NCBI GenBank assembly: GCA_963682025.1
Contig: OY821517.1
Span: forward strand, 293,895,670-293,959,669
Direction of reading: 5' to 3'
Source: Cordilura impudica
Taxonomy: Eukaryota; Arthropoda; Insecta; Diptera; Scathophagidae
Length of the DNA: 64,000 bases
Under the pieces are notes generated by a model, which was given only the letters and a program-made list of their open reading frames with translations, made no database searches and had not been told where the DNA came from. The position numbers were made by a program, and so were the translations under genes. This document shows positions 14,136 through 50,928 of the stretch, piece after piece (within the stretch, counting starts at the first letter, position 1; every line of letters begins with the position of its first letter).

Positions 14136-14330
14136 TCCTTAGAAAAATATTTCAAATAAATAAAAAAAAAAATAGATTGTGAAATCATTAAAAAAAAAAA
14201 GGATAAATTCGTGGAATTATTGAAGTCGTTAAATAAAACAAAAAGCGGTATTTTATTTTTAATAGTGTGATCGAGCCAATCAAGAAAATAAATTCAAGAA
14301 AAATATCAAAAAGATATTCAAGAATACAAA

Positions 14331-15051: not shown

Positions 15052-15054
15052 GAT

Positions 15055-18000: not shown

Positions 18001-18383
18001 AAGGACCGAAGATGCTAGAGTGTTTTAGTCATGCTGATTTTGGTGGATGTATGAGTACAGGGCGTTCTACATCCGGTGTTGTTGTTTGTTATGCTGGTGG
18101 AGCAATATCCTGGTTAAGTCAGAGACAAACTATGGTATCAACATCAACAACTGAAGCAGAAATTGTAGCTGCTAACGAAGCCGCAAAAGAAATAATTTGG
18201 CTAAAACGACTCTATGGGGATGTTACAAATTTTAACAAAATTCCTGTAATACAAATTGACAATACTGCAGCTATTCGTTTAGCTCAAAATCCCGAGTTTC
18301 ATAAAAGGACGAAACATATTGCATTGAAGCATTATTTTATAAGAGAAAAAGTTACAGAGGGTCATTTGTTAGTGATCGTTTAA
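15055..18383 (+). pseudogene. copia pol region: protease, integrase, reverse transcriptase, RNase H
   Basis: In order: zinc knuckle; protease motif VDNGATRH, where Ser is usual instead of Asn; integrase HHCC zinc site (HERWGH..CEPC) and an intact integrase triad in DVCGP, SDNGGEF and ERENR; reverse transcriptase from about 16990; RNase H from about 18020 (HADFGG, STTEAE, IDNTAA). Breaks: a frameshift near 15790, TGA codons at 16406 and 17105, a stop at 17597 and a frameshift near 17765. The active site usually read YVDD is CVDA here, which removes a catalytic aspartate. Confidence 0.85.
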
Positions 18384-18414
18384 ATATTAGTTAATTCATT
18401 TAAACAAGGGACAG

Positions 18415-18553
18415 TGTTGAAATTGTTTATAATGAACTTGTTATATTGTTATATTATAACTATTCTATTAATCATGTTAGTTTTCTGTTTTGATCTGAAA
18501 TGTCTTATTTACTATATTTGCTCTTCACTTCAATAAAAACAATTAATTCAATA
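18415..18553 (+). repeat. copia 3' LTR
   Basis: Begins TGTTGAAATTGTTTATAATG after the purine tract and ends TTAATTCAATA before the AATGT target duplication. It carries AATAAA in CAATAAAAACAATT, as does the left copy. Confidence 0.85.
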
Positions 18554-19645: not shown

Positions 19646-21647
19646 ATGAATGGTTCTTATCCCCTAAACCATAATCGGTTCAGGGAACTCGGTTCCAACG
19701 AAGACTTATCGCGAAGCAAACGCTTTCGCGATGGTGAATTCATTTCTCTCCCAGAAATAAGACAATGCGACGATCATATTCCACGTTATCTTGTCATATC
19801 AACCAATATAAATAAGGAATTAACATCAAAACCGATTTCAGCATATAATGTTTTTCAAATAGAAAAGGGTTTAAATTTTATCTCAAAAGAATACACTGAT
19901 GTAGTTGAACTCAAATCAGGCGATCTCCTTATAAAAACCAAAAACCTAAAGGCTGCCGAAAAATTTAGGAAAGCAAATTACATTGACACAATTCAAGTTT
20001 CAATTACTTACCATAAAGCCCTTAATTATGTACAAGGCAAAATTTTCTAAAAAAAAATTATATATTTGTCGGAAGATGAATTAATTGAAGGCCTAAAAGA
20101 TCAAAAAGTTGTCGAAATCAGGAAAATAATGAAGAAAGAAGATGATAAGCTCGTACCAACAGGAGCAGCAGTTATAACTTTTGATCTGATAAGACATCCT
20201 GAATACCTTAAGCTTGGCTGGGAATGAGTTAAAATTAATGAATACATCCCAAACCCTATGAGATGCAAAAACTGCCAAAAGTTAGGACACACGAAAAATC
20301 GTTGCAAAAATCCAGAACTATGCAGAGAATTTGGAGAAATAACACCACATAACCCTTGCAGCAAGAAGTTTTGCGTAAATTGTAGTGTCGAAACTCATGC
20401 CTCATATGAATCTACATGTCCATCTTTTCTAAAACACAAGGCTGTTCTAAAGATTAAAATAGACAAAAGATGTACTATCAGGGAAGCCTGGAAAACTTAC
20501 AACTTAAATCCAGAATCACATCAAATATTCACAAAAAATAACCCTAAACCTACATTTGCAAACATTACCAAAAGTACAAAAAATGTAACATTCGAAAAAG
20601 AAAAACAGTTAAAAAATGATAAAACAACTATTGAAATCAACAACAGAACTATTTTAAATCAAGAAAAAGTAAAACAAAAAACTCAAAAAGAAATAATACA
20701 ACATACAAGAACAACAACAGACAAACCAGAAGGAAAAAAATCAAATTCAACAACAACAAGTAAGAAAATTATAGTCGGTCTAGACCGACTATACGATACC
20801 CTATACCATGCGTTTAGAGACCCTATCTCTTAGGCCCAACTAACTGGACATAGAAAATAAGCAAAAACCAAATTTGAGTGGGATTTTTATTAATTTTTTT
20901 GGCTGCAGATATGAAAAAGTTCATATCGGATGCTGTATCTATATAGGGACTTGGTCCAAAAATGGACCGATCCTGATCATGTTTGGTAAAGTCTCTTGTA
21001 TTTTGCAAAAATATATACAAACAAAATTTGAGAAGAATCAGTGCAATATTTTTGTTTTTTAATAGATTTAAGTGAAGATCGGGAAGCAGCTCTATATGGG
21101 GTCAAAGGGATCATTTTTGGACTACTCATTAATGGATGTAATGAACGCATACAAACCCAATTTGAGTAAGATCTATATGACAATTTGGATCTTATGGCAA
21201 TTTATGTCGATTTCATATGGGTAATTTGTATGGGGGCTAGGTCTGAACATGGACCGATTCTCACCAATTTCAATAGCGTTCATCCTATGGCCGATAAAAG
21301 CTTATGTACCAAATTTCGTCAAAATACATTCATATTTGCGACCTGCAGTTTGATTACAAGCTTTACATGGACACACAGACGGACGGACGGACATTGTTAA
21401 ATCAACTCAGAAAGTGATTCTGATTCGATCGGTATAATTAAAGATGGGTCTAGGTCAAATATTTTTGGTTGTTACAAACAGCAGCACAAAGTCATTATAC
21501 CCAAACCACATAGTGGTATAGGGTATAAAAACTGACAACATTAAACACCCGCTAGAAAATACAAATCACTCTACAATGGAAATTGACAGCGAAACAGAAA
21601 CTAATCTATCAACACCAAAAAGAACATCACAAACCCTTGATACATAA
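19646..21647 (+). pseudogene. I-like LINE ORF1 (gag-like), interrupted
   Basis: Read from ATG at 19646 (MNGSYPLNHNRFRELGSNED). Two in-frame stops (20048 and about 20225) lie in otherwise continuous coding sequence. A knuckle CKNCQKLGHTKNRC is followed by degenerate ones in which a ligand Cys is replaced (CREFGE). A Lys/Thr-rich tail runs to 20755. After the inserted repeat the same ORF finishes at 21528-21647, ending TSQTLDT-stop. The family role is RNA binding in the retrotransposition particle. Confidence 0.7.
20756..21527 (+). mobile_element. INE-1/Helentron-like element inside the LINE's ORF1
   Basis: About 770 bp from ACAAGTAAGAAAATTATAGT through the palindrome AGTCGGTCTAGACCGACT to GGTATAGGGTATAA. 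The host ORF1 is readable on both sides, so the inserted boundaries are well fixed. No target duplication is visible, in keeping with rolling-circle-type insertion. This copy is the near mirror of copy B at 3836-4618. Confidence 0.75.
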
Positions 21648-24700: not shown

Positions 24701-25382
24701 CATTAAACAATCTATTCTTCCTAATCATACAGGCATTTTCGCAGCCGAACTAGCAGCCATAAGGCACGCTGTATGCTATGCATCAAAAAAACGAGAAAAA
24801 TCTTTGATATGTACTGACAGTCTTAGTGCAGTCAAATCACTAAAACTTGATAGTGAAAGCAGAAAATTTGTACTCGGTAATTCCATACTGCTTAATGAAA
24901 TTATTATCCTTTGGATTCCAGGACACGTAGAGATCAAAGGTAACGAATCTGCTGACAAAGCTGCTAAAAATGCAAACAATGATCCATTAATTACAGAAGT
25001 ACCACCGTTTGTGCCTGTGATATCAAACTTCCATAAATACCTTCAACTAGAGCTCCAACAACAACGATGGAGTACATCAAACAACTTTTTAAAAGCTCAC
25101 AACAGCAGTACGTCACGACCTTCTTACAATAAACACTTCAGCAGGAAAGACTGCATCACAATAGCCAGAATCAGAGTTGGAACAACAATATTTAGCACAC
25201 AACATTTTTTTGAAAGAACGCAACGTAGGCAATGTGAAAATTGCTCAGAGGAACTTACAATAAGTCACATCTTCAAAGATTGTCCCATAAGCTCAACAAA
25301 TGAACCACTTGAAGAAGTACTCAACTGCAATAACAAGAACACAGTAAAAAAAATTAAGAATATCCTTAGATCTGCCAATGTA
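21780..25382 (+). pseudogene. I-like LINE ORF2: endonuclease, reverse transcriptase, RNase H
   Basis: Begins at ATG 21780 (MNIGLDLSIIQWNIQGFLNN). Endonuclease motifs: LQETH, CGDLNTQN and SDHFPI, with a break near 21910-21950. The reverse transcriptase lies at about 23040-24044, with GYRPISLLS, LSEDLEKAFDK and GVPQGSPLS, but the active site reads YADN where YADD is expected. After frameshifts around 24044-24390, RNase H runs from about 24620: FTDGS, AELAAI, CTDSLSAVKS and GNESADKA. The last codons were cut by the mariner at 25383; removing it and one TA gives a stop four codons later, at 26700. Confidence 0.8.
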
Positions 25383-26688
25383 ACGGGTGATTTTTTTGAG
25401 GTTAGGATTTTCATGCATTAGTATTTGACAGATCACGTGGGATTTCAGACATGGTGTCAAAGAGAAAGATGCTCAGTATGCTTTGACATTTCATCATGAA
25501 TAGACTTACTAACGAGCAACGCTTGCAAATCATTGAATTTTATTACCAAAATCAGTGTTCGGTTCGAAATGTGTTTCGCGCTTTACGTCCGATTTATGGT
25601 CTACATAATCGACCAAGTGAGCAAACAATTAATGCGATTGTGACCAAGTTTCGCACTCAGTTTACTTTATTGGACATTAAACCAACCACACGAATGCGTG
25701 CAGTGCGTACAGAAGAGAATATTGCGTCTGTTTCTGAGAGTGTTACTGAAGACCGTGAAATGTCGATTCGTCGCCGTTCGCAGCAATTGGGTTTGTGTTA
25801 TTCGACCACATGGAAGATTTTACGCAAAGATCTTGGTGTAAAACCGTATAAAATACAGCTCGTGCAAGAACTGAAGCCGAACGATCTGCCACAACGTCTA
25901 ATTTTCAGTGAATGGGCCCTAGAAAAGTTGGCAGAAAATCCGCTTTTTTATCGACAAATTTTGTTCAGCGATGAGGCTCATTTCTGGTTGAATGGCTTCG
26001 TAAATAAGCAAAATTGCCGTATTTGGAGTGAAGAGCAACCAGAAGCCGTTCAAGAACTGCCCATGCATCCCGAAAAATGCACTGTTTGGTGTGGTTTGTA
26101 CGCTGGTGGAATCATTGGACCGTATTTTTTCAAAGATGCTGTTGGACGCAACGTTACGGTGAATGGCGATCGCTATCGTTCGATGCTAACAAACTTTTTG
26201 TTGCCAAAAATGGAAGAACTGAACTTGGTTGACATGTGGTTTCAACAAGATGGCGCTACATGCCACACAGCTCGCGATTCTATGGCCATTTTGAGGGAAA
26301 ACTTCGGAGAACAATTCATCTCAAGAAATGGACCGGTAAGTTGGCCACCAAGATCATGCGATTTGACGCCTTTAGACTATTTTTTGTGGGGCTACGTCAA
26401 GTCTAAAGTCTACAGAAATAAGCCAGCAACTATTCCAGCTTTGGAAGACAACATTTCCGAAGAAATTCGGGCTATTCCGGCCGAAATGCTCGAAAAAGTT
26501 GCCCAAAATTGGACTTTCCGAATGGACCACCTAAGACGCAGCCGCGGTCAATATTTAAATGAAATTATCTTCAAAAAGTAAATGTCATGGACCAATCTAA
26601 CGTTTCAAATAAAGAACCGATGAGATTTTGCAAATTTTATGCGTTTTTTTTTAAAAAAAAGTTATCAAGCTCTTAAAAAATCACCCGT
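25383..26688 (+). mobile_element. DD41D mariner-like element with an intact transposase gene
   Basis: 1306 bp with inverted ends beginning ACGGGTGATTTTTT on both sides, the match continuing imperfectly for about 28 bp. TA duplications lie at 25381-25382 and 26689-26690. It sits in the final codons of the I-like ORF2. The coding frame is unbroken, so this is the least decayed DNA transposon in the window. Confidence 0.9.
25496..26581 (+). CDS. DD41D (rosa-type) mariner transposase, intact
   Basis: 361 residues from ATG at 25496 (MNRLTNEQRLQIIEFYYQNQ) to TAA, a usual length for mariner transposases. Residues 1-55 form the first helix-turn-helix; a second DNA-binding region near 88-112 contains RRRSQQLGL. 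The catalytic aspartates are Asp159 (ILFSDEAHFW), Asp252 (WFQQDGATCHT) and Asp294 (TPLDYFLWGY), with 41 residues between the second and third. DD41D is the signature of the rosa group described in flies. The family cuts and pastes DNA at TA dinucleotides. All key residues are present, so activity is possible, but it is not shown here. Confidence 0.9.
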   Translation: MNRLTNEQRLQIIEFYYQNQCSVRNVFRALRPIYGLHNRPSEQTINAIVTKFRTQFTLLDIKPTTRMRAVRTEENIASVSESVTEDREMSIRRRSQQLGLCYSTTWKILRKDLGVKPYKIQLVQELKPNDLPQRLIFSEWALEKLAENPLFYRQILFSDEAHFWLNGFVNKQNCRIWSEEQPEAVQELPMHPEKCTVWCGLYAGGIIGPYFFKDAVGRNVTVNGDRYRSMLTNFLLPKMEELNLVDMWFQQDGATCHTARDSMAILRENFGEQFISRNGPVSWPPRSCDLTPLDYFLWGYVKSKVYRNKPATIPALEDNISEEIRAIPAEMLEKVAQNWTFRMDHLRRSRGQYLNEIIFKK

Positions 26689-26792
26689 TATTAAAAAATA
26701 TATAGTGTAATGGCCTAGTAGCCCACACTATTTCTTCTTTGTATTTTATAAATTTATCTTTATATAATACTTTCAATAAATAAATAAATAAA

Positions 26793-27732
26793 TTTCCTTT
26801 TCCGTGTACAACTTTATGTTTTTTATTTTTTCTATTAGATTTTCATTCAAATAACGTATAACGCTTGCAAAAGTTGAAAGTTGGTGAACTTTTTTCATCA
26901 TGCGCTTTGTGTATCTCACTTTATGAAAATACACCACTTAAACTTTTTTTGACAGTAGTCCAAAAAGCGTTGAAGCGTTGAACCGTAAAACGCGTGTTCT
27001 GTACCTTATGAATGTGCACTCAAGGTAAAATTAGTTTGGAATTTTGATAAATGACGCAAATCATCGCAAATTATTGGGTTTTTATCAAAAAACAAAAAGC
27101 GAATACATATAATGTCACTTCAAGATATTTTCGCGGTTATGGCTCAATAGATTTAATTTTGATTAAAAATATTTAATTGTGCAAAAGGGGCTACCGCTAT
27201 CACTTTCTGGACTTAATTTAATGACTCATAAAATATCCTTATATATATTTTTCTTATTAATTTCGCATTTAAGAATGTTTATAAAATATTAACAAAAACT
27301 TTTAAAAAAGAATAAAATAAAGTGACTCTAATTTAACACTTTGAAAATGATAACATTTAGAAATCATATTTGAGTTTTGAGAAGTGAAGTTTTTTTTTTT
27401 TTGCTTGGAAGGCCATTTAAAATTCACTTTTTAGGTTCACTTACAGTTCATAAGTAACTGTAATTCATAAGGGCCTTAGAAATGGTAAAATTTGAGAGTG
27501 GAGAAGTTATTTTTTTTCTTTGAGTGCGGAAAACTGTGAAATACATTTTTATTTAATTAAAATTAATTTTAAATCGTGTTAGCCTTTCACAACGTACATA
27601 TATTATCAATATTTAATAATAATTTTACTTTAAATTGGATTCTGAAAGTAAAGTACATGAAAATATTATTACGACTTTTTAATAAAAATGGGCTTTTTTT
27701 TAACAATCAGGCAAAACTTTCTCGGGTTATTA
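26793..27732. other. Host intron segment
   Basis: AT-rich DNA with no convincing frame. It includes AAAACGCGTGTTCTG at 26987-27001, the inverse of 18940-18954. The last 14 bases (27719-27732) are the left target duplication of the Jockey element that follows. Confidence 0.4.
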
Positions 27733-27909
27733 GAGTTCGAATCTAACTCTCTTTACGAACGGTCGTGTAAAAAATCAAAGCGCTTAGAGTACAACTATTT
27801 AAAATTAAAAACAAGTGTTTATTTTTGTTTTTGCAATTGCCTATTCTTGATCTCATTTGAACTCACGTGGTAGACAATCCAGCTTTAAAACAGGAATAAA
27901 AATTTTGCG

Positions 27910-29073
27910 ATGGCCCGAGGGGCCAAATCTTCATCAAAAAGAAAGCTTGTGAATAAGATGACAAAACTTCCTCCGGGTTTTGTTAACCCGAACATGGCGT
28001 CAACTTCAAGCAACAGATTTAGCCTGCTTGCTGGCCTCAATGATATGGACGTAACTCCCGTATCAAATATTAACGATGTTAAGGAACACAAACCTCCACC
28101 CATTGTTGTAGAAGCTAACGCTTCATTTACAGAAATACAAAAGCTGCTTGGTAAGGATTGCATTTTCAAACGTACTTCAATTAGTACCAAAATTTTTGCT
28201 CCTAGTAATAAAATGTACGAATGCTACAAGCAAATACTTAAAGAGAATAAGATGGAGTTTCATTCTTATGGCTCCAAAGAAAATAGGTTATACACCACCT
28301 TTTTACACGGTTTACCCCGCATAAGCTCTGAGGAAATCTCCAAGGAGCTAAAAAACTACAACCTATCCCCCTCTTCCGTAACTGAAATAACCACCAAATT
28401 CAGTTCAAACAATAATGCAGTTTATAAAGTTCAATTTGTTCGTAAAAATTTTAATCCAACTGCTTTAAAAAATGTACGAACAATTTCTAATATTATAATT
28501 TCTTGGAAAAAATATAAATCGAAATCCAAGAACAAACCAACTCAATGCTGGAACTGCTTGATGTATGGCCACGGCGGCGAACATTGCCATCGAAGTGCTG
28601 CGTGTATGATATGTGCAGAACAACATCATACAAGTGTGTGTCCGTTTAACACAAATGAAAAAAGACCAGCTGTTTTTACATGCTTTAATTGCAAAAAACA
28701 AGGAAAAGAAAGAACTGATCACTCTGCAAACGATATCAACTGTCCGTTACGTTCTCTCTATTTGGAAACTAGAACAAGAGTTACTTCTAAAAGTCCGAAT
28801 AAAAGCAGACAACAACAAAATAACTCATTTCAATTTAATGTGCGAGATTTTCCTAACTTAAGAAACAACAACACAAATTGTAACAATAACATCAATAATA
28901 ACAGCAAAGCTACATATGCTAATCAGCTGAAAAAAAACAACGATTTATTTAGCATTGATGAGCTTTTTGATATTTTCACTACAGCTATGGATGATTTGCA
29001 TAGGTGCACTTCAAAAGTACAACAAATCAAAGTTGTAATGTCAATGGTAAAATACGCCCATGGATTATACTAA
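27910..29073 (+). CDS. Jockey-clade ORF1 (gag-like zinc-knuckle protein), open
   Basis: 387 residues from MARGAKSSSKRKLVNKMTKL to GLY-stop. The central part (about 80-200) resembles the domain found next to zinc fingers in Jockey-type ORF1 proteins. Zinc knuckles: Cys213, Cys216, His221 and Cys226; then CMICAEQHHTSVC from Cys232; then a third from Cys258 to Cys278. An Asn-rich stretch follows, then FSIDELFDIFTTAMDDLHRC. The family role is RNA binding and nuclear or telomere-directed delivery of the element. The stop overlaps the ORF2 start by 14 bases in another frame. Confidence 0.85.
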   Translation: MARGAKSSSKRKLVNKMTKLPPGFVNPNMASTSSNRFSLLAGLNDMDVTPVSNINDVKEHKPPPIVVEANASFTEIQKLLGKDCIFKRTSISTKIFAPSNKMYECYKQILKENKMEFHSYGSKENRLYTTFLHGLPRISSEEISKELKNYNLSPSSVTEITTKFSSNNNAVYKVQFVRKNFNPTALKNVRTISNIIISWKKYKSKSKNKPTQCWNCLMYGHGGEHCHRSAACMICAEQHHTSVCPFNTNEKRPAVFTCFNCKKQGKERTDHSANDINCPLRSLYLETRTRVTSKSPNKSRQQQNNSFQFNVRDFPNLRNNNTNCNNNINNNSKATYANQLKKNNDLFSIDELFDIFTTAMDDLHRCTSKVQQIKVVMSMVKYAHGLY

Positions 29074-31687
29074 TATTTTAAACGAATTCAAAATGCTTCA
29101 CTTGAATGCTAATGGCATTTCAAACTTTTCTAAATTAAAACAATTTGAGATACTAATTGAACGAGAAAATATTAAAATAGCGTCTTTGAATGAAACATTT
29201 TTTTCAGAAAATCATAGACCCTATTTTAAAAATTATTATTTATATAGAAGTGACAGAACAGATGCAAGAGGAGGAGGAGTAGCTCTGTTAATTCATAAAT
29301 CTGTTGCTCATAAAAACCTCTTTATATCAAACACTTCATCAATCGAAAACATCTCAATTGAAGTTATTATAAATAATAGACCTATTGTTGTATCTTCGTT
29401 ATATTCACCAAGATATACCCATAACTTCTGTGCTGATATCTTGAACCTAACACCTTCCACCAAAGAATACATAGTTTTTGGTGACCTAAATGCCAAACAT
29501 TGCTCTTGGAATTGCCGTTCAAATAATACTGCAGGAATCGCACTGAACAATATACAGCAATCAAGCAATTTTTTTATACACTATCCTAATAGTCCAACCC
29601 TATTCCCCCATCAACACAATCGGGAAGCATCTACAGTCGATATTATTTTAAGCAATACCGCTTTAAATATAGACGTAAAGACAATGGATTACGAAATACC
29701 ATCAGACCATCGCCCCATTATGTGTACACTTAAAAGATCAGTGGCCTCACAGGTGGACCTCAACTATTATGATTATAGTGCAACCAACTGGAACATTTAT
29801 ATGAATTTTTTAGAAAATAAAATCTCGTTAAATTCGGATATATACAATACCAAGGCAGTAATTGATCAGGAAATACAAAAATTTATAAATGTAGTTTTTG
29901 AAGCAAGGGATGCGTCTACACCTAAAATAACTCAACAAAATAATTTCACATTACCAGAAAGTACTGTGAAATATATTAAACTAAGACGAAGCTTTAAAAG
30001 AAAAAGCCAACGATGTTCAAATATAGCCGAGCAAACTTTTTATAATCAATGTACTAAGTTTCTAAGTAACATGATTGATAAAAGTATTAATTCGGAACGC
30101 AATAAGAAATGGTGTCAATTATTATCCAATTTAAAACCAGGTGATAAATCATTTTGGAGAATAAGCAGGAACTTGCGAGGAAAAGGAAAAAATCAAATCT
30201 CTCACCTTGAGGTTGGAAATACAAGGATAACATTTGATAAGGACAAGGCTGAAGTCCTGGCAAATACATTTGTCAAAGCAAATAACCTCACTTCAAATTA
30301 CAACCACTCAGCTGATATAGTAATAAATACAACAGTAAATAATTTTTAGAAGGAAAATCCCAGTTCTGAGTCAGCAATTTATACATCTCTAGAAGAAGTA
30401 ATGAATATTGTCTCATCAATAAAACCCTCAAAATCTCCTGGTTTTGACAATGTTCCCAACCTGCTCTTAAAGAAACTACCACTCAAAGCTCTAAAATTAC
30501 TGGTTATAATATTTAACAGCTGCATCAAACTCAACTATTTCCCAAACCATTTCAAAAATGCTAAGGTTATAGCTGTCAATAAACCTAATAAGCCAAAAAA
30601 TTAAGTAACTTAGGTAAAATATTTGAAAAAATACTACATTCTCGTCTTAGTGAATTTGTAACGACCAATTCTATTGTTGCTAAAGAACAATTTGGATTTA
30701 AAAAGGGCATAGCACTACTCACCAAATAAACAGAATTAAAAATCAAATAATCAGCAATAAAAACAATAAACGTTCAACGGGTCTAATATTGTTGGATATC
30801 GAAAAAGCGTTTGGCATAATGGCCTAGTATTTAAACTTCTTGATGCAAATATACCAAAATATTTATGCAAACTTATTTCAGATTTCATTCACGGCAGAAG
30901 CTTTAAAGTTGCGATTAATAATGAAACATCATCTCCAAAAACCATTACCACAGGGTTACCTCAAGGATCAGTCTTGTCGCCATTGCTTTACTCGATATAT
31001 ACATCCGATTTCAAAGTTCCGAAATATATGAAAGTTGCTTACTACGCAGATGATACTGCGTTAATTTCTTCAAACAAACTTACAAGTGCACTCCTGAAGA
31101 AAATGGAAAAGGGACTTGTTAATTGCAGTAAATATTTCCACAAATGGAAAATTAAAATTAATCCAAACAAGACCCAAGCAATTATTTTTCCGTTCAACAA
31201 ATCTCCCAAAAGACTGCCAAGACGTCATCTTCATATTGGAAATAATACCATAAATGTACTTAATCATGTCAACTATCTCGGAGTTGTCTTGGACAAAAAG
31301 CTTACTTTTAAACAACATATTATGGCTACGTGTCAAAAAGCTATAAAATCATTTAAAGCATTATGGCCACTACTAAATAGAAGGTCATTTCTAAACCCCA
31401 AAAACAAAAATCTACTCTTCAAAAGTGTTATAAGGCCGATATTAACATACGCGTGTCCTATTTGGAGTGACGCTGCCAACTGCCACCTAAAACGCTTACA
31501 AATTATACAAAACAAATGTCTTAAAATGATAAATAAAAAGCCCTGGAGGTATCCTACAAATCTTCTTCATGAAGAAACAGGTTATGAAAAAATTATCGAT
31601 TTCATAACAAGGATTAACAATAATTACTTTGCCAAAATTGAAAATTCCTCTTACCCACTGATAAGAGAATGTAGAGAAATAACGTAA
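29060..31687 (+). pseudogene. Jockey-clade ORF2, endonuclease and reverse transcriptase, broken
   Basis: Starts MDYTNILNEFKMLHLNANGI. Endonuclease motifs: SLNETF, VFGDLNAKHCSW and SDHRPI. An in-frame TAG at 30347 replaces the Lys codon of copy 2. About 35 bp are missing near 30600 (the segment before SNLGKIFEKI), and further small losses occur near 30710 and 30813, the latter in the first catalytic region (LDIEKAF). The YADDTALISS site is intact at about 31040. The C-terminal knuckle-like region and stop agree with copy 2. Confidence 0.85.
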
Positions 31688-32010
31688 AATTAAAAAGAAA
31701 TCACCAAATTGAAAATTATATGCGTATAGAGGTCTATTATTTCTAATAAACCTTCTATAAGCATATAAATATTTTCAGATAGTATTTGAATTTATTAAAT
31801 CATATAAAGGTTTTTTCCTCCCATTTTCCTTTAAAAATCATTAAAAAATAAAATAAAAACTATTTAATGTCTTTAGATCCTATATATTATTTGTTGCAAT
31901 ATCTATATGTAAAGATAAGATCTCATATGTAAATATCAAATTTGTTAAAATATGTAAATAAAGAATGTATAATTAAAAAAAAAAAAAAATTTGAAATTCT
32001 CGGGTTATTA

Positions 32011-32411
32011 AGAATTATAACGAACGTCTTACTTACTGTTAAGAGAAGCCCGGATTGGTAGAAAAAATCGGTTATATTAACCCTAAACAGGTTAGGTAAA
32101 AATCCGAATATTTCGCATAAAAAACAGCTCAAAAAATTAATGGCACAGCCTTTCAAACGAAAATTGAAAAAAGGACCAGGGTTCAAATCAAATATCAATA
32201 CGGCATTATGGACGGTGGATTTTACGTAGCTAGAGGGAATGTCCGTGAACTATTTGAGACACAAAAAAGTGTTTCGTTTGATAGGCTTTTTGTATTTTGC
32301 TATTTGTAGTGGTGTGACAATGGTACGAATACAAGGGTGGTCCCAGAACAACCTGATCAGAGTTTGAACTGGCAACCTTATAAAACATATCTTCTAAGTT
32401 TCAAGGCGCCC
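32011..32411. other. Host intron segment beside the Transib relic
   Basis: No gene recognised. GGGTGGTCC at 32336-32344 has its inverse GGACCACCC near 32479-32487, inside the Transib leader, giving a small inverted pair. The sequence GGCGCC immediately precedes the Transib end. Confidence 0.35.
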
Positions 32412-33905
32412 CACAGTGTTCGATTTTCAAAATTAGGAGGACAAAACCCCAAAAATAAATTATAAAAAAGAAAAAAACGGACCACCCTATCATAAAAAGG
32501 AATGTCCAGTTAAGATTTTTTTTATTGCTTTTAGTTGGAATTTAATATTATAAGCATATAACGGTATTAAGAATGATAATGAAAGGTTACAAAAGAAAAA
32601 CAATTAATTTAGTTCGAAAATAACTCTAACTCTAAACTGCCTCCGCTGAACAATCTTTTTTAATCAACATGGCGTCTTCCACAATTTCTCGTAACGAACT
32701 TTTTAACGTATGGCTATCAACTGCCAAGAAATCGACCATAAATTCGACTTTATTTCATCAAATTTCGTTGGAAGTTCAACAACCATAATACAATATGATA
32801 AATTAAAGTCTTTAGTATCAATATATGCAACAAATTCCAAAAAAAGATGGATAAAGGCTAATAGAACAAAACCTCGATTTCTCCATGATAATAACGATTG
32901 GCTAGCTGTTTTAATAGAATATTCTTATTTTACAATAAATTCTACACAACAAAATAATGCTGTGGGCAGGCCAAAAAAAAAAAAAATTTGAAGATTGTAG
33001 CCAAAGAAGCAAGAACAGGAAAGCAGCAGAGTTGACTACTACCGTGGATAATGATCAGCTGGTGAAAAAAAAAATGCGATACGCTGGAAAGCGTAATTCA
33101 GCTGGAATAGTAAAAGAATTAGCTTTGACTTCACCACAAAGAGGTACTGCCATAAAAAAACCAAGGTCAAAAACTGAGGAAGGAAAAGGCCTTTCAGCGG
33201 ATGAAGCTCTGGCGATGATTTTGGATTTGGATTTATCCACAAACAAGTATCGAACACTTAATCAACATACAAAGCGTCTTAATCGAGCCTTATATGAATT
33301 AGTTAAGAACTCAAAAGAGCTGTGCTACCCACAAAACATGACAGTAACCGAGTCTTATGCAGAAATAGAATTGCAGTCGTTAATAGACCACACGATTTTA
33401 AGGTTGTGCGCGTGTTACAGTGACTTTATAATGAGTCAAATGGGCACATGCGGAGAAATATATGCATTGTTCAAATGGGAATGTGATGGAGCTAATCAAA
33501 GTCTTTATAAACAAAAGTGGCTAGAGGAAGGCAGTAGTGATGAAAATTTGTTTAGCATTTCTTTAGTACCCATAAAAATGTATTTAATTAATGAAAATGA
33601 AGAGAAAACTGTTATTTATGAAAACACATCACCCAATTCTTCACGCTATTGTCGACCAATTAAATTAATATTTGCAAAGGAGACTACTGATTTGATAAAA
33701 AGCGAGGTAGAAAGTATTAAGGAAAAATGGTATTCACTATACTGTTTGCATAAAACCAAAATTAGTTTTATGCAACCTTTAAAAATGGCTCGGTGAAAAA
33801 AGATTTGCCAACAATGAATTGCTGGAGTCTGCGGTTGATGGCTCTTTTAACCAAGCTATTGAATATCCTGGGAAAATTTATCGAACTAAAACGATATTAT
33901 GTTGA
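32412..33905 (+). mobile_element. Transib-superfamily (RAG1-related) DNA transposon, deletion relic
   Basis: The left end is placed at CACAGTG (32412-32418), followed by a 22-bp spacer and ACAAAACCC (32441-32449). That layout parallels a 23-type recombination signal and published Transib termini. GC-rich CGCCC lies just outside, as is usual for Transib targets. The coding relic begins about 250 bp inward. No matching right end was found up to 34224 or after 38556, so the element is truncated or rearranged there. Confidence 0.55.
32669..33905 (+). pseudogene. Transib transposase, N-terminal part with first catalytic region, internally deleted
   Basis: Possible start MASSTISRNELFNVWLSTAK, then frameshifts into 32710-32991 and, at an A run, into 32957-33796. 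Transib-like features: VGRPKKK..FEDCSQRSKNRKAAEL near 32955-33035; FKWECDGANQSLYKQKW, where the Asp fits the first catalytic Asp of RAG1/Transib (RAG1 SCDGMGD); LFSISLVPIKMYL; and TSPNSSRYCRPIKLIFAKET, which parallels RAG1 core sequence around its CCKPL motif. The frame then jumps to a short C-terminus (WLGEKRFANNELLESAVDGS to TILC-stop at 33903). The second Asp and final Glu regions are absent. Assigned from remembered motifs, so a search is needed to confirm. Confidence 0.6.
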
Positions 33906-34241
33906 GAAATAAAAACAATTTTTCCCAAATTTGTTGTTTTCTTTGCCGCCTCATAACACCGATTTATAAATTAAAGAATGCTTACAAAAGAATTCTTCCA
34001 TTCCTAAAGTATCTACGTTTTTGGGCCTGATCTTACATCATGTCATTACAGTAATTCGCCTGTTGAATGGTACAAGCAAAAAATAATTTCAATTTCTTAA
34101 CAAGATATACGATTCCCCCACCAGCTCGGTACTAAAAGGTTCATAGACAGATATTGGGCTCTTGCAAAACAAGAAAGTTTATGAAGACCACAAACACCAA
34201 ACTTTTTGCTCGGATACGATATTTTTCCAGCAAAGGGATTC
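33906..34241. other. Segment between the Transib relic and Jockey copy 2
   Basis: No feature recognised. A minus-strand frame of about 55 codons is open here and across the pre-insertion site after 38555, but it has no recognisable motif. The last 17 bases (34225-34241) are the left target duplication of the next LINE. Confidence 0.35.
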
Positions 34242-34417
34242 AGTTCGAATCTAATTCTCTTTACGAACGGTCGTGTAAATAATTAAAGCGCATAGAGTAC
34301 AACTATTTAAAATTAATAACAAGTGTATATTTTTGTTTTTGCAATTGCCTATTCTTGATCTCATTTGAACTCACGTGGTAGTCAATTCAGCTTAAAACAG
34401 GAATAAAAAATCTAGCG

Positions 34418-35578
34418 ATGGCCCGAGGGGCCAAATCTTCATCAAAAAGAAAGCTCCTTGCCAACAAGAAGATGACAAAACTTCCTCCGGGTTTTAACCC
34501 GAACATCGCGTCAACTTCAAGCAACAGATTTAGCCTGCTTGCTGGCCTTAATGATATGGACGTCACTCCTGTATCAAATATTAACGAGGTTAAACAACAC
34601 AAACCTCCACCTATTGTTGTTGAAGCTAACGCCTCATTTACAGAAATACAAAAACTACTTGGTAAAGATTGTATTTTCAAACGTACTTCAATTGGTACTA
34701 AAATTTTTGCTCCAAGTAAAGAAATGTTCGAATGCTACAAGCAAATTCTTAAAGAGAGTAAGTTGGAGTTTCACTCTTATGGCTCCAAAGATAATAGGTT
34801 ATATACCACTTTTTTACACGGTTTACCCCGCATAAAAACTGAGGACATCACCGCAGAGCTAAAAAACTACAACCTGTCCCCTTCTTCCGTAGCTGAAATA
34901 GTCACCAAATTCAGTTCGAACAACAATGCAGTTTACAAAGTTCAATTTGTACGTAAAAATTTTAACCCAACTGCCTTAAGAAACGTAAGAACAATTTCAA
35001 ATATAATAATTTCCTGGAAAAAATACAAATCTAGATCCAGAAATAAACCAACTCAATGCTGGAACTGCTTAATGTATGGCCATGGCGGTGAACATTGTCA
35101 TCGTAGTGCTGCCTGTATGATATATGCAGAACAACATCATACAAGTGTGTGTCCGTTTAACACAAACGAAAAAAGACCAGCTGTTTTTACATGCTTTAAT
35201 TGCAAAAAACAAGGAAAAGAGAGAACTGATCACTCTGCAAACGATATCAACTGTCCGTTACGTTCTCTCTATTTGGAAACTAGAACAAGAGTTACTTCTA
35301 AAAATCCGAATAAAAGCAGACAACAAAATAACTCATTTCAATTTAATGTGGGAGATTTCCCTAATTTAAGAAACAACAACACAAATTGTAACAATAACAT
35401 CAATAATAACAGCAAAGCTACATATGCTAACCAGCTGAAAACAAACGATTTATTTAGCATTGATGAGCTTTTTGATATTTTCACTACAGCTATGGATGAT
35501 TTGCATAGGTGCACTTCAAAAGTACAACAAATCAAAGTTGTAATGTCAATGGTAAAATACGCCCATGGATTATACTAA
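34418..35578 (+). CDS. Jockey-clade ORF1 (gag-like), open, one knuckle ligand changed
   Basis: 386 residues, MARGAKSSSKRKLLANKKMT onward, collinear with the copy 1 ORF1. The second zinc knuckle reads CMIYAEQHH where copy 1 has CMICAEQHH, so one Cys ligand is lost although the frame is open. It overlaps the ORF2 start by 14 bases, as in copy 1. Confidence 0.85.
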   Translation: MARGAKSSSKRKLLANKKMTKLPPGFNPNIASTSSNRFSLLAGLNDMDVTPVSNINEVKQHKPPPIVVEANASFTEIQKLLGKDCIFKRTSIGTKIFAPSKEMFECYKQILKESKLEFHSYGSKDNRLYTTFLHGLPRIKTEDITAELKNYNLSPSSVAEIVTKFSSNNNAVYKVQFVRKNFNPTALRNVRTISNIIISWKKYKSRSRNKPTQCWNCLMYGHGGEHCHRSAACMIYAEQHHTSVCPFNTNEKRPAVFTCFNCKKQGKERTDHSANDINCPLRSLYLETRTRVTSKNPNKSRQQNNSFQFNVGDFPNLRNNNTNCNNNINNNSKATYANQLKTNDLFSIDELFDIFTTAMDDLHRCTSKVQQIKVVMSMVKYAHGLY

Positions 35579-38232
35579 TATTTTAAACGAATTCAAAATG
35601 CTTCACTTGAATGCTAATGGCATTTCAAACTTTTCTAAATTAAAACAATTTGAGATACTAATTGAACGAGAAAATATTAAAATAGCGTCTTTGAATGAAA
35701 CTTTTTTTTCAGAAAATCATAGACCCTATTTTAAAAATTATTATTTATATAGAAGTAACAGAACAGATGCAAGAGGAGGAGGAGTAGCTCTGTTAATTCA
35801 TAAATCTGTCGCTCATAAAAACCTCTTTATATCAAACACATCATCAATCGAAAACACCTCAATTGAAGTTATTATAAATAATAGACCTATTGTTGTATCT
35901 TCGTTATATTCACCAAGATATACTCATAACTTCTGTGCTGATATCTTGAACCTAACACCTTCCACCAAAGAATATATAGTTTTTGGTGACCTAAATGCCA
36001 AACATTGTTCTTGGAATTGCCGTTCAAATAATACTGCAGGAATTGCACTCAACAACCTACAGCAATCAAGCAATTTTTTCATTCACTACCCTAATAGACC
36101 AACCCTATTCCCCCATCAACACAATCGCGAAGCATCCACAGTCGATATTATTTTAAGCAATTCCGCTTTAGATATAGACGTAAAAACAATGGATTACGAA
36201 ATACCATCAGACCATCGCCCCATAATATGTACACTTAAAAGATCAACGGCCTTGCAGGTTGACCACAATTATTATGATTATAGTGCAACTAACTGGAACA
36301 TTTTTATGAATTTTTTAGACAATAAAATCACGTTATATTCGGATATATACAATACCAAGGTAGTTATTGATCAGGAAATCCAAAAATTCATAAATGTAGT
36401 TTTCGAAGCAAGGGATGTGTCCACACCTAAAATAACTCAACAAAATAATTACACATTACCAGAAAGTACTGTAAAATATATTAAACTAAGAAGAAGCTTT
36501 AAAAGAAAAAGCCAACGATCTTCAAATATAGCCGAGCAAACTTTTTATAATCAATACTAAGTTTCTAAGTAACATGATTGATAAAAGTATTAATTCGGAG
36601 CGCAATAAGAAATGGTCTCAATTATTATCCAATTTAAAACCAGGTGATAAATCATTTTGGAAAATAAGCAGGAACTTGCGAGGAAAAGGAAAAAATCAAA
36701 TCGCTCACTTTAAAGTTGGAAATAAAAAAATAACATCTGATAAGGACAAGGCTGAAGTCCTGGCAAATACATTTGTCCAAGCAAATAACCTCACTTCGAA
36801 CTATAACCACTCGGCAGATACACTAATAAATACAACAGTAAATAATTTTAAAAAGGAAAATCCCAGTTCTGAATCTGCAATTTATACATCTCTTGAAGAA
36901 GTAATGAATATTGTCTCATCAATAAAACCCTCAAAATCTCCTGGTTTTGACAATGTTCCCAACCTGCTCTTAAAGAAACTACCACTCAAAGCTCTAAAAT
37001 TACTGGTTATAATATTTAACAGCTGCATCAAACTCAACTATTTCCCAAACCATTTCAAAAATGCTAAGGTTATAGCCATAAACAAACCTAGTAAGCCAAA
37101 AAATAACCCAAACAGCTACAGACCTATTAGTCTATTAAGTAACTTAGGTAAAATATTTGAAAAAATACTACATTCTCGTCTTAGTGAATTTGTAACGACC
37201 AATTCTATTGTTGCCAAAGAACAATTTGGATTTAAAAAAGGGCATAGCACTACGCACCAAATAAACAGAATTAAAAATCAAATAACCACAAATAAAAACA
37301 ATAAACGTTCAACGGGTCTAATATTGTTAGATATTGAAAAAGCGTTTGACACCGTTTGGCATAATGGCCTCTTATTTAAACTTCTTGATGCAAATATACC
37401 AAAATATTTATGCAAACTTATTTCAGATTTCATTCACGGCAGAAACTTTAAAGTTGCGATTAATAATGAAACATCATCTCCAAAAACCATTACCACAGGG
37501 TTACCTCAAGGATCTGTCTTGTCGCCATTGCTTTACTCGATATATACATCCGATTTTAAAGTCCCAAAATATATGAAAATTGCTTATTACGCAGATGATA
37601 CTGCGTTAATTTCTTCAAACAAACTTACAAGCGCACTCCTGAAGAAAATGGAAAAGGGACTTGTAAATTGCAGTAAATATTTTCACAAATGGAAAATCAA
37701 AATTAATCCAAACAAGACCCAAGCAATAATTTTTCCATTCAACAAATCTCCCAAAAGACTGCCAAGACGTCATCCTCTTATTGGAAATAATACCATAAAT
37801 GTACTTAACGAGGTCAAATATCTCGGAGTTGTCTTGGACAAAAAGCTTACATTTAAACAACATATTATGGCTACGTGTCAAAAAGCTATAAAATCATTTA
37901 AAGCATTATGGCCACTACTAAATAGAAGGTCATTTCTAAACCCCAAAAACAAAAATCTACTCTTCAAAAGTGTTATAAGGCCGATATTAACGTACGCGTG
38001 TCCTATTTGGAGTGACGCTGCCAACTGCCACCTAAAACGCTTACAAATTATACAAAACAAATGTCTTAAAATGATAAATAAAAAGCCCTGGAGGTATCCT
38101 ACAAATCTTCTTCATGAAGAAACAGGTTATGAAAAAATTATCGATTTCATAACAAGGATCAACAACAATTATTTTGCCAAAATTGAAAATTCCTCTTACG
38201 CACTGATAAGAGAATGTAGAGAAGTAACGTAA
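35565..38232 (+). pseudogene. Jockey-clade ORF2, endonuclease and reverse transcriptase, single frameshift
   Basis: The endonuclease half runs 35565-36560 (SLNETF, VFGDLNAKHCSW, SDHRPI). Copy 1 has AATGTACTAAG where this copy has AATACTAAG, a two-base loss at about 36555 that breaks the frame. From 36574 the rest is open for 552 residues: SYRPISLLSNLGK, LLDIEKAFDTVWHNG, TTGLPQGSVLSP, YYADDTALISS and a C-terminal CHLKRLQIIQNKC region. All catalytic aspartates remain. The family role is nicking DNA and copying the element's RNA at the nick. Confidence 0.9.
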
Positions 38233-38555
38233 AATTAAAAAGAAATCACCAAATTGAAAATTATATGCTTATAGTGGTCTATTATTTCTAATAAACCTTC
38301 TATAAGCATATAAATATTTTCAGATAGTATTTGAATTTATTAAATCATATAAAGGTTTTTTCCCTCCCATTTTTCTTTAAAAATCATTAAAAAATAAAAT
38401 AAAAACTATTTAATCTCTTTAGATCATATATATTATTTGTTGTAATATCTATGTTAAGATAAGATCTCATATGTAAATATCAAAATTTGTTAAAATATGT
38501 AAATAAAGGAAGAATATTTAATTGAAAAAATTGAAAAATTCCAGCAAAGGGATTC

Positions 38556-39474: not shown

Positions 39475-39674
39475 NNNNNNNNNNNNNNNNNNNNNNNNNN
39501 NNNNNNNNNNNNNNNNNNNNNNNNNNNNNNNNNNNNNNNNNNNNNNNNNNNNNNNNNNNNNNNNNNNNNNNNNNNNNNNNNNNNNNNNNNNNNNNNNNNN
39601 NNNNNNNNNNNNNNNNNNNNNNNNNNNNNNNNNNNNNNNNNNNNNNNNNNNNNNNNNNNNNNNNNNNNNNNNNN
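39475..39674. other. Assembly gap of 200 N
   Basis: Exactly 200 unknown bases, a typical placeholder length. It interrupts the host gene between exons 1 and 2, so the exon 1 donor and any intron are hidden. Confidence 0.95.
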
Positions 39675-42564: not shown

Positions 42565-42573
42565 TTAAGTATA

Positions 42574-43365
42574 ACAAGTAAGAAAATTATAGTCGGTCTA
42601 GACCGGCTATACGATACCCTATACCATGCGTTTAGAGACCCTATCTCTCAGGACCAACTAACTGGATATAGAAAATAAGCATAAACCAAATTTGAGTGGG
42701 ATTTTAATTAATTTTTTCGGCTGCAGATATGAAAAAGTTCATATCGGATGCTATATCTATATGGGAACTAGGCCCAAAAATGGACCGATCCTAACCATGT
42801 TTGGTGAAGTCTCTTGTATTTTGCAAAAATATATACAAACAAAATTTGAGAAGAATCAGTGCAATATTTTTGTTTTTTGATAGATTTAAGTGAAGATCGG
42901 GATGCAGCTCTATATGGGGCCTATGACTAAGAGTTGTCCAATAGGGATCATTTTTGGACTACTGATTAATGGATGTAATATATACATACAAACCCAATTT
43001 GACTAAGATTTGTATGATAATTTGGATCTTATGGCAATATATGTTGATTTCATAGGGGTCATTTGTATGGGGGCTAGGTCTGAACATGGACCGATTCTCA
43101 CCAATTTCAATAGCGTCTATCCCATGGCCGATAAAAGATCAAATACCAAATTTCGTCAAAATATATTCATATTTGCGATCTGCAGTTTGATTACAAGTTT
43201 TACATGGAAACACAGACGGACGGACGGACATCGTTAAATCGAATCAGATAGTGATTCTGATTCGATCGGTATAATTAAAGATGGGTGTAGGTCAAATATT
43301 TTTGGTTGTTACAAACAGCAGCACAAAGTCATTATACCCAAACTACATAGTGGGATAGGGTATAA
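42574..43365 (+). mobile_element. INE-1/Helentron-like element, copy D
   Basis: About 790 bp from ACAAGTAAGAAAATTATAGT and the palindrome TCGGTCTAGACCGG to GGATAGGGTATAA, directly beside the TTAA MITE. The GACGGACGGACGGACAT tract is at about 43216. Confidence 0.7.
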
Positions 43366-43653
43366 ATATAAAGTCTGGTAACAAATTATCATATGAAATT
43401 ATACCAACTTGCCGAGCTCAGACCTCGTTCAGTTTTTTTTTTAAATTTATATATATAAAAATAAATATGAATATTTAAATAAAATTCATTAAATTGTGAA
43501 TTTTTAAATAAAATTCCTTAAATTTCGTTATAAATACACAGAAGATATATAACTGGGTCTGTTAATAAATAATTTCATAAGAGCCTAAAGGTATGCTTAT
43601 AAATTTTAGCATAGTATAGTTTTTTATTTGAAGCTTAAATATGTGTTTTGTGC
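43366..43653. other. AT-rich spacer
   Basis: No gene or repeat recognised; short A/T-rich direct repeats (TAAATAAAATTC) occur at 43475-43510. Confidence 0.35.
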
Positions 43654-44956: not shown

Positions 44957-47900
44957 TTTTATACCCTCCACTCCAGTGTGCAGAGGTTATATATAAGTTT
45001 GTCATTCCGTTTGTAATAATTAGAAAAAAAATTTTGGACCCCATAACATGTACATATATATTTGTGATCCTTATAACAACCGGAGTTGATGTAGCGATGT
45101 CCGTCTGTCCGTCTGTGGAAATCACGATGACGGCATCAATCGGGCAGCTAGGGTGCTCGTTGACATAAAAAATGATTCACTAACATCCTGAAAAGTTTGC
45201 TATTTAAAATCGTCCAAATCGGTTGATTAGGGCCCGAGATTTGAATGAAGAACTAAAAAAAGTCTTGAAAAAATATAATTTTCTATGTTGTTCTTGTCAC
45301 GATCACGCCCTCAATAGTGCAGCTACAGTGATCATTTTTAGTGAGAATGATTCACCAAATTCATGGGAAGATTTCTGTTTCAAAAATCATTAAAATCGGT
45401 GGAACAGGTCCAGGGAAATCTCTGAAAAAGTAAAAAAAAAAAAATGAAAAATATGATGTTTCTATATTGTTCTTGTTGTTATTCTAAATGTTGTGTTGTT
45501 ATCATAGACTCATGGACTTGTTGTTTTTGTGGTCGTTGTGGTAATAATATAATAAAAACTAACCCTTTGTACATTTTTTTATTAATTCTGGTAGAAAAAT
45601 TTTAAAGTTTCCATTGTTTTGGCATCACTCTAAAAATTTGTTAGATCATTTCTGTTATTACCACGAGCCTGCCTGCAAAATTTCAGACCGAATGGCTCAC
45701 GGGAAATTGGTTAAAATCGATCCAAAATTTTTTCGATAAGCAGACACTACGAGTTAATATAAAGGGAGTAAAAATTCACCAACATCTTAAGCAAATAATG
45801 CTAAAATTCCTAGTTGTTAATAAAAAAAAAAATGTAAATATAGCGAAAAAAAATTTATGTATAAATTTATTTATAAATTTATATAAACATATTAAATAAT
45901 ACAAATAATATACATATATTATATATGTATATCCATAACAACTGCATATTAGAAATAAGTCGGTATATTATTTTATTTACATAAAATTCTGCAATATTTT
46001 GTTAAGAGGAAAATACATTTCTTTTGCATTAACAGAGTGTCACTTCATTTTGCTCAGCGTGACTATGCCACAATAGATGGCGCCACAATTTTTGTTTGTT
46101 CTAATTAGCTTTGCAATAGTTATTTCTATTTTAACATGAATGTTAATATTTTCAACTGGATATCATATAGAACAATGTTCAGAGTATACACGGGCTGGTC
46201 TTTTATTTCATACGTATTTTCATTATTCTTTTACAAATATGAACATAAGTTTGGCATATTAACTTTTTGTTGTCTTTACAAAATAGAGTTACCGAGTTCA
46301 TCAATGAGTTTTTTGCTTTCAAAACAATTCTACATAGTTATATAGAATTATTAATCTGCTTTACCTACAAAATATCTGATTGCGATTACATCTAATTTTT
46401 AAAAATTGTTTATAATTACTAAAGCGTTATTATACACATAAATACAAAATTGCACTTTTTAAATTTTCCATTCAAATTTAAGAACATATCAATTCTAAAA
46501 ACTGGAATTAAAAATTTCCAATTATAAATTACAATTAATTGAATTTCAGAAAATCATATCAAAACGTCGGAAATTATAATTTTAAATTTAGAAGACATCA
46601 ATTGCATCTTTAATATATAAATTTTATTCGTTAAACACAAATTGAAATTCCAAAAAAAAAAAAAAAAACACCAAATACCTATGTTTACATTTAAAAAATT
46701 TTTACATTTAAAAAAAATATTGACATTCAGGAGAAATTAATAGCTTTTCAGTTTCGCGATTCAGTAACTTCTTTTAACGATAGTCGAATCGTTAAAAAAT
46801 GAAAATTGCAAAATTATCAGTAAAATTTTTAAACGATATTCGCTATTGTTAAAGTCAGCTGTTGTTGTTATCTAAACGACAACCATTTTTGTGTTGTTTA
46901 TTCAATCAATAAAAACTTAAATTTTTAGGTTGAAATGTCGTCGTACATAAATAAAAATCATAAAATAGTGAAAATATTTTGCTTTAATTAAAAAACTTTT
47001 TTATATAAATAAAAAAATTAAATAGCATATTCAATTCATTATTTCATTTTCAAATAAATACACAGAAATATTAGTAAAAAAATAAAGATAATAAACATCA
47101 ACATAAAATCATCCTGTCAAACACGAAGTAATTTGTTTTCTTTTATTCTTCTTATGTTTTTCGCTTATTTTGACAGAGATGCCATTCGTTTACAATTTAA
47201 ATAAATAGAAAAATAGATTTGTCGACTGTCGTTAAGATGTATGTACTTAGTGAATCACTTAATCCTCAGTGCAAACAACAATAGCTGTCGATATATTTTG
47301 CGATTGTCGGATCGTTGAAATTTACAGAATCACACTACAGAAAACATTGATTTAAATTCAATGAATTTCAGAAAACGTCAAATGATATTTAAGAATTGCG
47401 AACATAAAAACTGTTACATAAATAAACGCAATTTGATGAGAATGTTATTTTTTATATATAAATTTTCACAATTTTTTTTGGATGAAAATTTGAAGTTTTT
47501 CAGAAAATAATAATAATAATAAATTCCCGTCGTTCCTATAAGGAGCATAGGGCCATGAAATAAAGAGAACAAATTATTTTATTTAAAATGTTTGGGACAT
47601 TTGGTTTTTTGCGTTTGGCATCCCTAATTTGAATATTTATTATTAAAAATTTATTCTCTATGTTTTCCAAATATGGCAATATTTTAATAAAAAAATTGAG
47701 AGAGTTTTTTTTTGGATATTATTTTGTTACTCCATCCGACCTATATGGCCGCAATGAAGAAATATTTGGCCAGTTAAAAGAAACTATACAGCCATCTCCA
47801 ATTAGCACGATTTAGTGCATATAGCTACCCACAACACAACCATTACCTTTGCAATGGAGGTTAGAGCGAGCTATTTAATTAACAAAAACTAAATTAAACG

Positions 47901-48112
47901 AGAAGTTATGTCATATAACCGGAAACGCATGCATATAGGTATATAACCTAAATGCATGTCGATCAGCAACCACGATGAAAAGACGAAAACCAACCCAAAG
48001 AATTTGCTGAAATAATTTGATATTAAGTTTAACAAATTGTTTATCAAGACTCAAACCGATGTGGAGGGTATCAAAGATTCGGCACACCCAGTTTTTAACA
48101 CTCTTACTTGTT
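44957..48112 (+). mobile_element. 3.1-kb INE-1/Helentron-like element, second family, copy X
   Basis: Begins TTTTATACCCTCCACTCCAG and ends with GTGGAGGGTATCAAAGATTC, then CACTCTTACTTGTTT. It shares the TATACCC start, GTCCGTCTGTCC tract and CTTACTTGTT end with the 0.75-kb family, but differs in between. A near-identical copy lies in inverted orientation at 50929-54044. No coding frame is shared or convincing. A short insertion at about 47510-47562 is absent from the other copy. Confidence 0.6.
47508..47562 (-). mobile_element. Tiny 5'-truncated LINE tail inside copy X
   Basis: About 53 bases present in copy X but not in copy Y. Read on the minus strand it gives GGAACGACGGGAATTTATTA followed by ATT repeats, the form of a non-LTR 3' end with a (TAA/ATT)n tail. 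AAATAA flanks could be its duplication. Confidence 0.45.
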
Positions 48113-49689: not shown

Positions 49690-50928
49690 TAAGTGATAAT
49701 TAGTCATACGTCTACGTACAGTGTTACACGTTCTTCGTACGTAGCGATGAGCGTAACTAATTATAAAAGTTTATAATTCCGTTTATAAATCATTAATATT
49801 TTAATTTTTATTTTAAAGAGTCTCATTACTAAATTTTTTATTGTCATATCAAAAACATGACATTATCAGCTTTAACCACAATCAAATCGATATTTGTGGT
49901 TTTCCTTTATGCTGCCTGCTTACTTGTGTTTTACATCTTTTTTTGCACTGTTTGATTTCAAATCTATAGTTTATGTTGAATCCAATAATTACAAATGTTG
50001 CCATTAATGTGCGTAGTCCATTGTGCATGCGTTTTATAAAATTATTTGAATATTGAATTTGCGGTTAGAAAATGATGTTTGTTTTTGTCAGTTGACTTAA
50101 TAAAATATAATATTAGCTAGCGATTGATAAAGTTTATGGTATGTCAAGACCAACCAAAATGCACCCCATTTAACAAATTTTTGTTCAGATGCAAAATTAA
50201 ACCAACTGTATGTCAGTTTCTATTCACAAAAACAAAAATTGTGTTAATTTAGTTTCTAAATATGTATTTTGTATCAAAAATTAATCAGTTTTCTACTTTT
50301 AAATATTATCTTAATAGCCTAGGGTTTCTGAAAAAAATAATATGACCCCATTATCCCTTTTGGACTTGGGGTCACATTTAACGTTAAGCCATTCCTTGCC
50401 GAGGCCAAACTTGGAATTTTGGCATATTAAAAAAAAGTAAATACCTAAAAATAATGCATTGTTCCAGTAAACTAGATTAAACCCTTATTGTTGGTTGGGA
50501 AATAAAATTCTGTTATCGAAAATTCATTCGTCCAGAAAATTTTAAAAATAATGATTTAAACGATTTTGTGCCCCAGAAAATTTAAAATTTTTTCAGCTGT
50601 ATTTCTGCAGAATTTTTATTTTTTCCACCATCGGCCTGGGAATCTGATGAAGATTTTAAAAAGCGTTACAATTTCTGCACGGAATTATTTGTAGTAAATG
50701 ATACTGCCTAAAGAAGCGTTAAATTCATAAAAGATTTTAATAAAGTGCTAACAAATAATAAAGAAGAAAGGCAGGTTTTACTCCAGATAATATAATCATA
50801 CAAAAAACAATATCCCTCCCGTACAAAGTCAAGTTTAATTTCACAAGTTCGGTTATAGTTCAACAATGTTCTTATTTTATTTAGAAAAATATAGATAGTT
50901 TTTAAAAATAAAATAATTTTATAATAGA
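49690..50928. other. Spacer between inverted repeats, right part
   Basis: AT-rich, with no gene recognised. An imperfect palindrome of about 75 bp lies at 49696-49768 (ATAATTAGTCATACG..TACGTAC and its partner). Confidence 0.35.

Follow-up and report, generated by a model that had tools for sequence, protein, structure and literature searches.

Transib transposons are thought to be the ancestor of RAG1, the enzyme that cuts antibody genes, and the Transib families with symmetric spacers were reportedly defined by Kapitonov and Jurka in 2005. A review gives such families symmetric spacers of 20-22 bp, with RSS-like parts at their ends (PMC8355894). A close known counterpart is Hztransib of Helicoverpa zea, represented in the PDB by 6pqn and five further entries, for which two papers describe, respectively, inverted repeats with a 5-bp GC-rich target duplication, GCTCG (PMC1852546), and a DDE triad formed by D126, D225 and E436 (PMC6941560). 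Here we show that a Transib family in the genome of the fly Cordilura impudica has as its real left terminus CACAGTG followed by 22 bp and a nonamer-like sequence, ACAAAACCC. RSS-like Transib ends are already published and this family adds to them, as one more family with V(D)J-signal-like ends on both sides that is present in many copies, with intact duplications, in one genome; it supports the published link from Transib to RAG and does not extend it.

The copy analysed here lies at 32412-33774 on the forward strand of a stretch of 64,000 nucleotides (the window), and DNA comparison with its relatives identifies it as the left half of an element of about 2.7 kb. What remains of its transposase is the N-terminal half (32651-33739, forward strand), which is interrupted by two frameshifts, so that frame 2 gives way at about 32725-32797 to frame 1, which is read up to 32982 and followed by frame 2 once more. 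The frame at 33041-33739 carries ECDG, with the first catalytic Asp, together with SSRYCRPIKLIFAKET, and the relic reaches upstream of it to about 32651; the second and third catalytic residues are absent. An earlier note on this DNA had described the frame as Transib/RAG1-like on the strength of motifs that include ECDG. Searches with the translation bear out its identity as a Transib transposase, with a match to the HzTransib structure 6pqn at E=3.4e-20, and the Hztransib transposase is homologous both to the relic and to a relative elsewhere in the genome, L025. The relation to RAG1 holds as it does for any Transib, but RAG1 itself stayed below significance for the window piece: the ECDG and CRP motifs of the relic align with RAG1 in the PDB at E=0.39, and the score for the Pfam RAG1 profile is 14.7 bits, below its cut-off of 25.

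Protein searches with the relic returned five homologues in one case and 14 in another, and it is to the N-terminal half only of these 14 proteins, five of which exceed 600 aa, that the relic aligns. The best homologue (P0001) is 58% identical, and the nearest with a named source, from Rhagoletis pomonella (P0002), is 50-52% identical. When the window was searched by tblastn with P0001-P0015, matches below E=0.05 were confined to 32651-33790, and no credible later part of a Transib transposase was found in the whole window; weaker scattered matches, the strongest of them at 6876-7136 with E=0.074, were regarded as chance and not as Transib pieces. Transib relatives were looked for in phage, viral-contig and genome-contig collections and none was found there.

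The left terminus itself occupies 32412-32449 on the forward strand. Its heptamer, at 32412-32418, is the sole exact CACAGTG in the window when both strands are counted, against a shuffling expectation of 3.24, and exactly 22 bp after it stands ACAAAACCC, one change away from ACAAAAACC, as the earlier note had reported. Simulated DNA of the local dinucleotide make-up, 10 Mb in all and with spacings of 20-24 bp allowed, contained no exact heptamer accompanied by a nonamer with at most one mismatch; a heptamer and nonamer with one mismatch in each occurred at 0.0008 per 600 bp, and the figure for one plus two mismatches was 0.008. Only a single end is present in the window, where our search for a Transib right end, like that of the earlier note, found nothing convincing, and this could be held to favour a chance match, the Transib relic having another left end or none. 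We consider that reading exceedingly improbable, both because a motif of this kind near the gene, with one mismatch in each part, has a likelihood of less than 0.001 by chance and because of what the rest of the genome contains. The genome from which the window comes (1,486,481,460 bases in 855 contigs) was searched with 32000-32640, a query that includes 412 bp of flank upstream of the heptamer. When the best 40 of 519 candidates were scored there were 48 matches including the window itself, of which 17 non-window matches start exactly at 32412, 11 start within 9 bp of it (32403-32421), 16 are internal Transib pieces and three are not Transib (two lie in the upstream repeat, and one is a mariner copy, L065, that overruns 32412 by 9 bp and whose sequence there is mariner). 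Among the matches listed from these best 40 of 519 candidates, no Transib family match begins upstream of 32403. Since the family matches start at 32412 despite the upstream flank in the query, this position is the left boundary of the family, and relatives with paired ends and 5-bp duplications at the same boundary also argue against a coincidence.

Twenty Transib relatives were fetched for an analysis of their ends, and 13 have a recognisable right end. These two-ended relatives range from 1262 to 4319 bp, with seven at 2.66-2.87 kb, and nine of them retain CAC at both ends. Perfect 5-bp duplications accompany seven of these nine (GATCG, CATCG, CGTCG twice, CGTTG, CAAAG and CGCCG), the remaining two are one base off, and none is present in the four two-ended relatives with a damaged left tip. 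What the earlier note had proposed as an RSS-like element end is confirmed by these boundaries, paired ends and duplications, and neither of the two outcomes that the note had named as refuting its reading was observed. Like Hztransib, the C. impudica relatives have inverted repeats and 5-bp GC-rich duplications, although Hztransib is 3518 bp long against about 2.7 kb for this family, and the window copy is a dead half element. Two of the relatives, L020 (1618 bp) and L022 (1262 bp), are internally deleted and retain their two termini, flanked by perfect duplications (CGTTG and CAAAG, respectively); they are presumably non-autonomous copies that moved.

The exact heptamer is found at the left end of 9 and at the right end of 11 of the 13 two-ended relatives, and is the commonest heptamer at both ends of the family. 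The majority left end reads CACAGTG, 22 bp and ACAAAACCC, the majority right end CACAGTG, 22 bp and ACAAAATTA, and the two agree at 7/7 bases of the heptamer, 19/22 of the spacer and 6/9 of the nonamer. Their alignment runs out at 35-36 bp, within the nonamer, and about 35 bp of 32412-32449 is the terminal inverted repeat that relatives also have on their right side. When the heptamer was left out of the search pattern, so that it consisted of spacer and nonamer, and three mismatches were allowed, 25 right ends and 24 left ends were found, 18 of the latter, the window's own included, being preceded by an exact CACAGTG; reversed-pattern controls of this search gave no left or right ends. Two others of these 18 (L058 and L060) have one common flank and may be a duplicated place. 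The end of a Transib family can in this way be read precisely from the copies in one genome.

Set beside the V(D)J signal, the left end has the exact CACAGTG and eight of nine nonamer bases, with a spacer of 22 rather than 23, but the right-end nonamer keeps only six of nine. Likened by description to the symmetric-spacer Transib families, the C. impudica family has a heptamer, a 22-bp spacer and a nonamer-like part at both ends, and is without the 12/23 asymmetry. It is a tentative and unlikely proposition that the left end, with its exact CACAGTG, 22-bp spacer and ACAAAA core, is near enough to a 23-type signal for vertebrate RAG1/RAG2 to bind or nick it; if true, the family would offer a natural substrate that bridges Transib ends and V(D)J signals.

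Compared with its relatives the window copy is without about 280 bp of leader, the gap falling at 32629-32634 and amounting to 277-291 bp against L016, L017, L019, L020, L026 and L027 and to less against L011 and L014. A further 44 bp are missing after about 33727, a frame-breaking deletion. DNA homology to the family then stops at 33774, and the 1.1-1.24 kb that follow in L011, L014, L015, L016 and L017 are absent. At the break the window copy reads TTTTATGCA, and relatives continue there with TGATTGATGGA, which encodes CMIDGK with the second catalytic Asp; MIDGK is read in L014 and in the DNA of L011 and L016, and L017 has GTTGAT there. The later core is retained in L025, which matches 6pqn at E=2.7e-86 over chain residues 17-464 and has the third catalytic residue, Glu; L014 has Asn at the first catalytic position. 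Relatives of about 2.7 kb show a Transib frame only, and none of the 13 two-ended relatives showed a full-length open frame, the longest being 460 aa (L025). A near-perfect 30-bp palindrome lies at 33746-33775 in Transib coding sequence, just upstream of the second catalytic Asp; it was considered as a mark of the break and rejected, and it belongs to the Transib family, since the same bases are normal coding sequence in four relatives.

The longest frame of the relic is a 285-codon open frame (32939-33796) that is open across the DNA-binding half, a feature that would fit selection for a domesticated DNA-binding protein of Transib origin. Two frameshifts, however, disrupt the start of the transposase, its end has suffered the 44-bp frame-breaking deletion and the addition of a foreign tail, and the family's other copies are broken and scattered, so that we regard domestication as very unlikely. 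The window copy is dead, and would be a neutral relic without function.

According to the earlier note, the rest of the catalytic core had been deleted and a short C-terminus joined on, with a right boundary at 33905. The core does stop, and a foreign coding piece does follow, but the piece is not of Transib nature and the boundary does not hold, as 33775 to about 33953 (forward strand) is the 3' part of a mariner, comprising the transposase C-terminus and the 3' end with a partly deleted terminal repeat. This assignment of the joined piece follows from its DNA homology to two loci, L034 and L036, and from motifs read by eye. Taken by itself, the stretch at 33783-33905 could be mistaken for Transib's own C-terminus in an internally deleted copy, being coding-like, on the same strand and directly after the relic, in a family in which internal deletions are known from L020 and L022, with both ends. 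Against this, the C-termini of the longer Transib proteins give no match, the relatives read MIDGK, normal Transib core, after 33774, and the stretch belongs to another, far more numerous repeat with a mariner frame; the likelihood of an own C-terminus is remote in the extreme. The DNA of 33781-33946 was found at 35 other places, unrelated to Transib, when the best 40 of 2935 candidates were scored, and four further matches from the same best 40 of 2935 cover 33953-34169.

The mariner interpretation extends to the other side of the Transib copy. The host mariner keeps its left end and leader at 32330-32411 (forward strand), which begin with TA and CAAGGGTGGTCCCAGAACAACC and run to GTTTCAAGGCGCC, where they are cut by Transib; the leader alone as query gave 39 other scored matches (best 40 of 391 candidates). 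L034 has on one strand, in order, the leader (86% identical to 32367-32410), a mariner frame and a stretch matching 33782-33943, and L036 has the same order, with a leader 92% identical to 32374-32410. The frame of L034 matches PF01359 at 25.6 bits (cut-off 24), SETMAR at E=1.9e-6 and Mos1 at E=4e-4, which, with the TA insertion site, likens the element to the DD34D Tc1/mariner group, although the window copy differs in being broken by Transib and by deletion. Window 32330-32361 recurs, as its reverse complement, in the right terminal repeats of L040, L032 and others. Since L034 and L036 carry both flanking pieces in order and these repeats match 32330-32361, the Transib copy sits inside the mariner. 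At the point of entry L034, L036 and L065 read an uninterrupted GGCGCCACG, where the window has GGCGCCC and then CACAGTG; base 32411 is C in the window and A in these three uninterrupted leaders. Protein searches with the window's C-terminal piece gave no mariner match (two chance matches, at E=1.4 and above), and the mariner identity therefore rests on its DNA relatives; the C-terminal frame of L040 likewise gave a chance Pfam match only and no mariner. The mariner motif was found at two loci (L001 and L002) in a genome-contig collection and at none in a viral-contig collection.

The mariner was itself inserted in a repeat. TA at 32330-32331 and at 33954-33955 are the mariner insertion-site dinucleotides, and the older repeat that was the target continues at 33954-34169. 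Its uninterrupted relative L035 is without mariner and aligns in one run to 32001-32051, 32313-32331 and 33953-34169, the middle piece being only 19 bp long (E=1.7).

The mariner end also bears on a different reading of the terminus, in which the RSS-like site would be the middle of a MITE bounded by a 10-bp inverted repeat, AGGGTGGTCC at 32334 and GGACCACCCT at 32479. The core of each arm is single in the window, the arms are 144 bp apart, and none of 20 simulated windows contained a comparable GC-rich pair. Yet the left arm belongs to the terminal repeat of the mariner and the right arm is present in the leader of four of the six Transib relatives checked, so that the arms come from different elements and a MITE is scarcely credible. 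When inverted repeats were counted with no GC floor, the window had 16664 and the simulation 39; this count was discarded as an artefact that presumably stems from the assembly gap at 39475-39674, a run of 200 N.

We are highly confident that a Transib whose relatives share RSS-like inverted-repeat ends of about 35 bp inserted in the mariner leader, and that deletion then lost its right half. According to this account, the older repeat would have come first and the mariner would have inserted into it at TA. A cut-and-paste Transib, ending in the inverted repeat of about 35 bp that comprises CACAGTG, a spacer of 22 bp and a nonamer of ACAAAA type, would then have entered the mariner leader at a GC-rich site, CGCC-C/A. 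By analogy with HzTransib as the literature describes it, cleavage by the transposase would fall 5' of the heptamer, with hairpinned flanks and 5-bp duplications as the outcome; CGCCC at 32407-32411, beside the Transib terminus, is a candidate left copy of the target duplication, its right copy having been lost. Later a single deletion may have begun 8-10 bases ahead of the second catalytic Asp codon and ended among the codons for the C-terminus of the host mariner. It would have taken about 1.1-1.2 kb of Transib with its right end, the right copy of the duplication and some 0.9 kb of mariner, and it would be because of this loss that the window has no Transib right end. The small deletions and frameshifts would have come after the large deletion, and two LINE copies of one family lie on either side, LINE B having inserted downstream at 34225-34241. 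The joined C-terminus of a relic can, as here, come from the element into which it jumped.

The two LINE copies flank the Transib/mariner nest on the same strand. LINE A (27733-31998, forward strand) has endonuclease and reverse transcriptase frames and a duplication, CTCGGGTTATTA, at 27721-27732 and 31999-32010; LINE B (34242-38538, forward strand) is 93.5% identical to it and has a 17-bp duplication at 34225-34241 and 38539-38555. A third, partial copy (3' part) lies at 8867-9587. Two more Tc1/mariner-like transposase frames are present at 9700-10960 and 25380-26690, with an N-terminal PF16087 (DUF4817) and apparent inverted ends, AAAGGGTCCGCCA and AACGGGTGATTTTTT; one of these frames is open over 364 codons (25487-26581). 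A short-LTR retroelement at 13976-18553 has 145-bp direct repeats that are 93% identical and start with TGTTGAAATTG, and gag- and pol-like frames, read by eye, between them. A repeat of about 780 bp, ending in CACATAGTGGTATAGGGTATAAA, is present in at least six copies on both strands of the window (1754-2504, 3835-4621, 8170-8857, 20752-21531, 42567-43368 and 61641-62375), which are 72-97% identical. Finally, 44957-48112 and 50928-54043 are 94% identical copies of a 3.1-kb repeat, inverted relative to each other and beginning with TTTTATACCCTCCACTCCAGTGTGCAGAGG.
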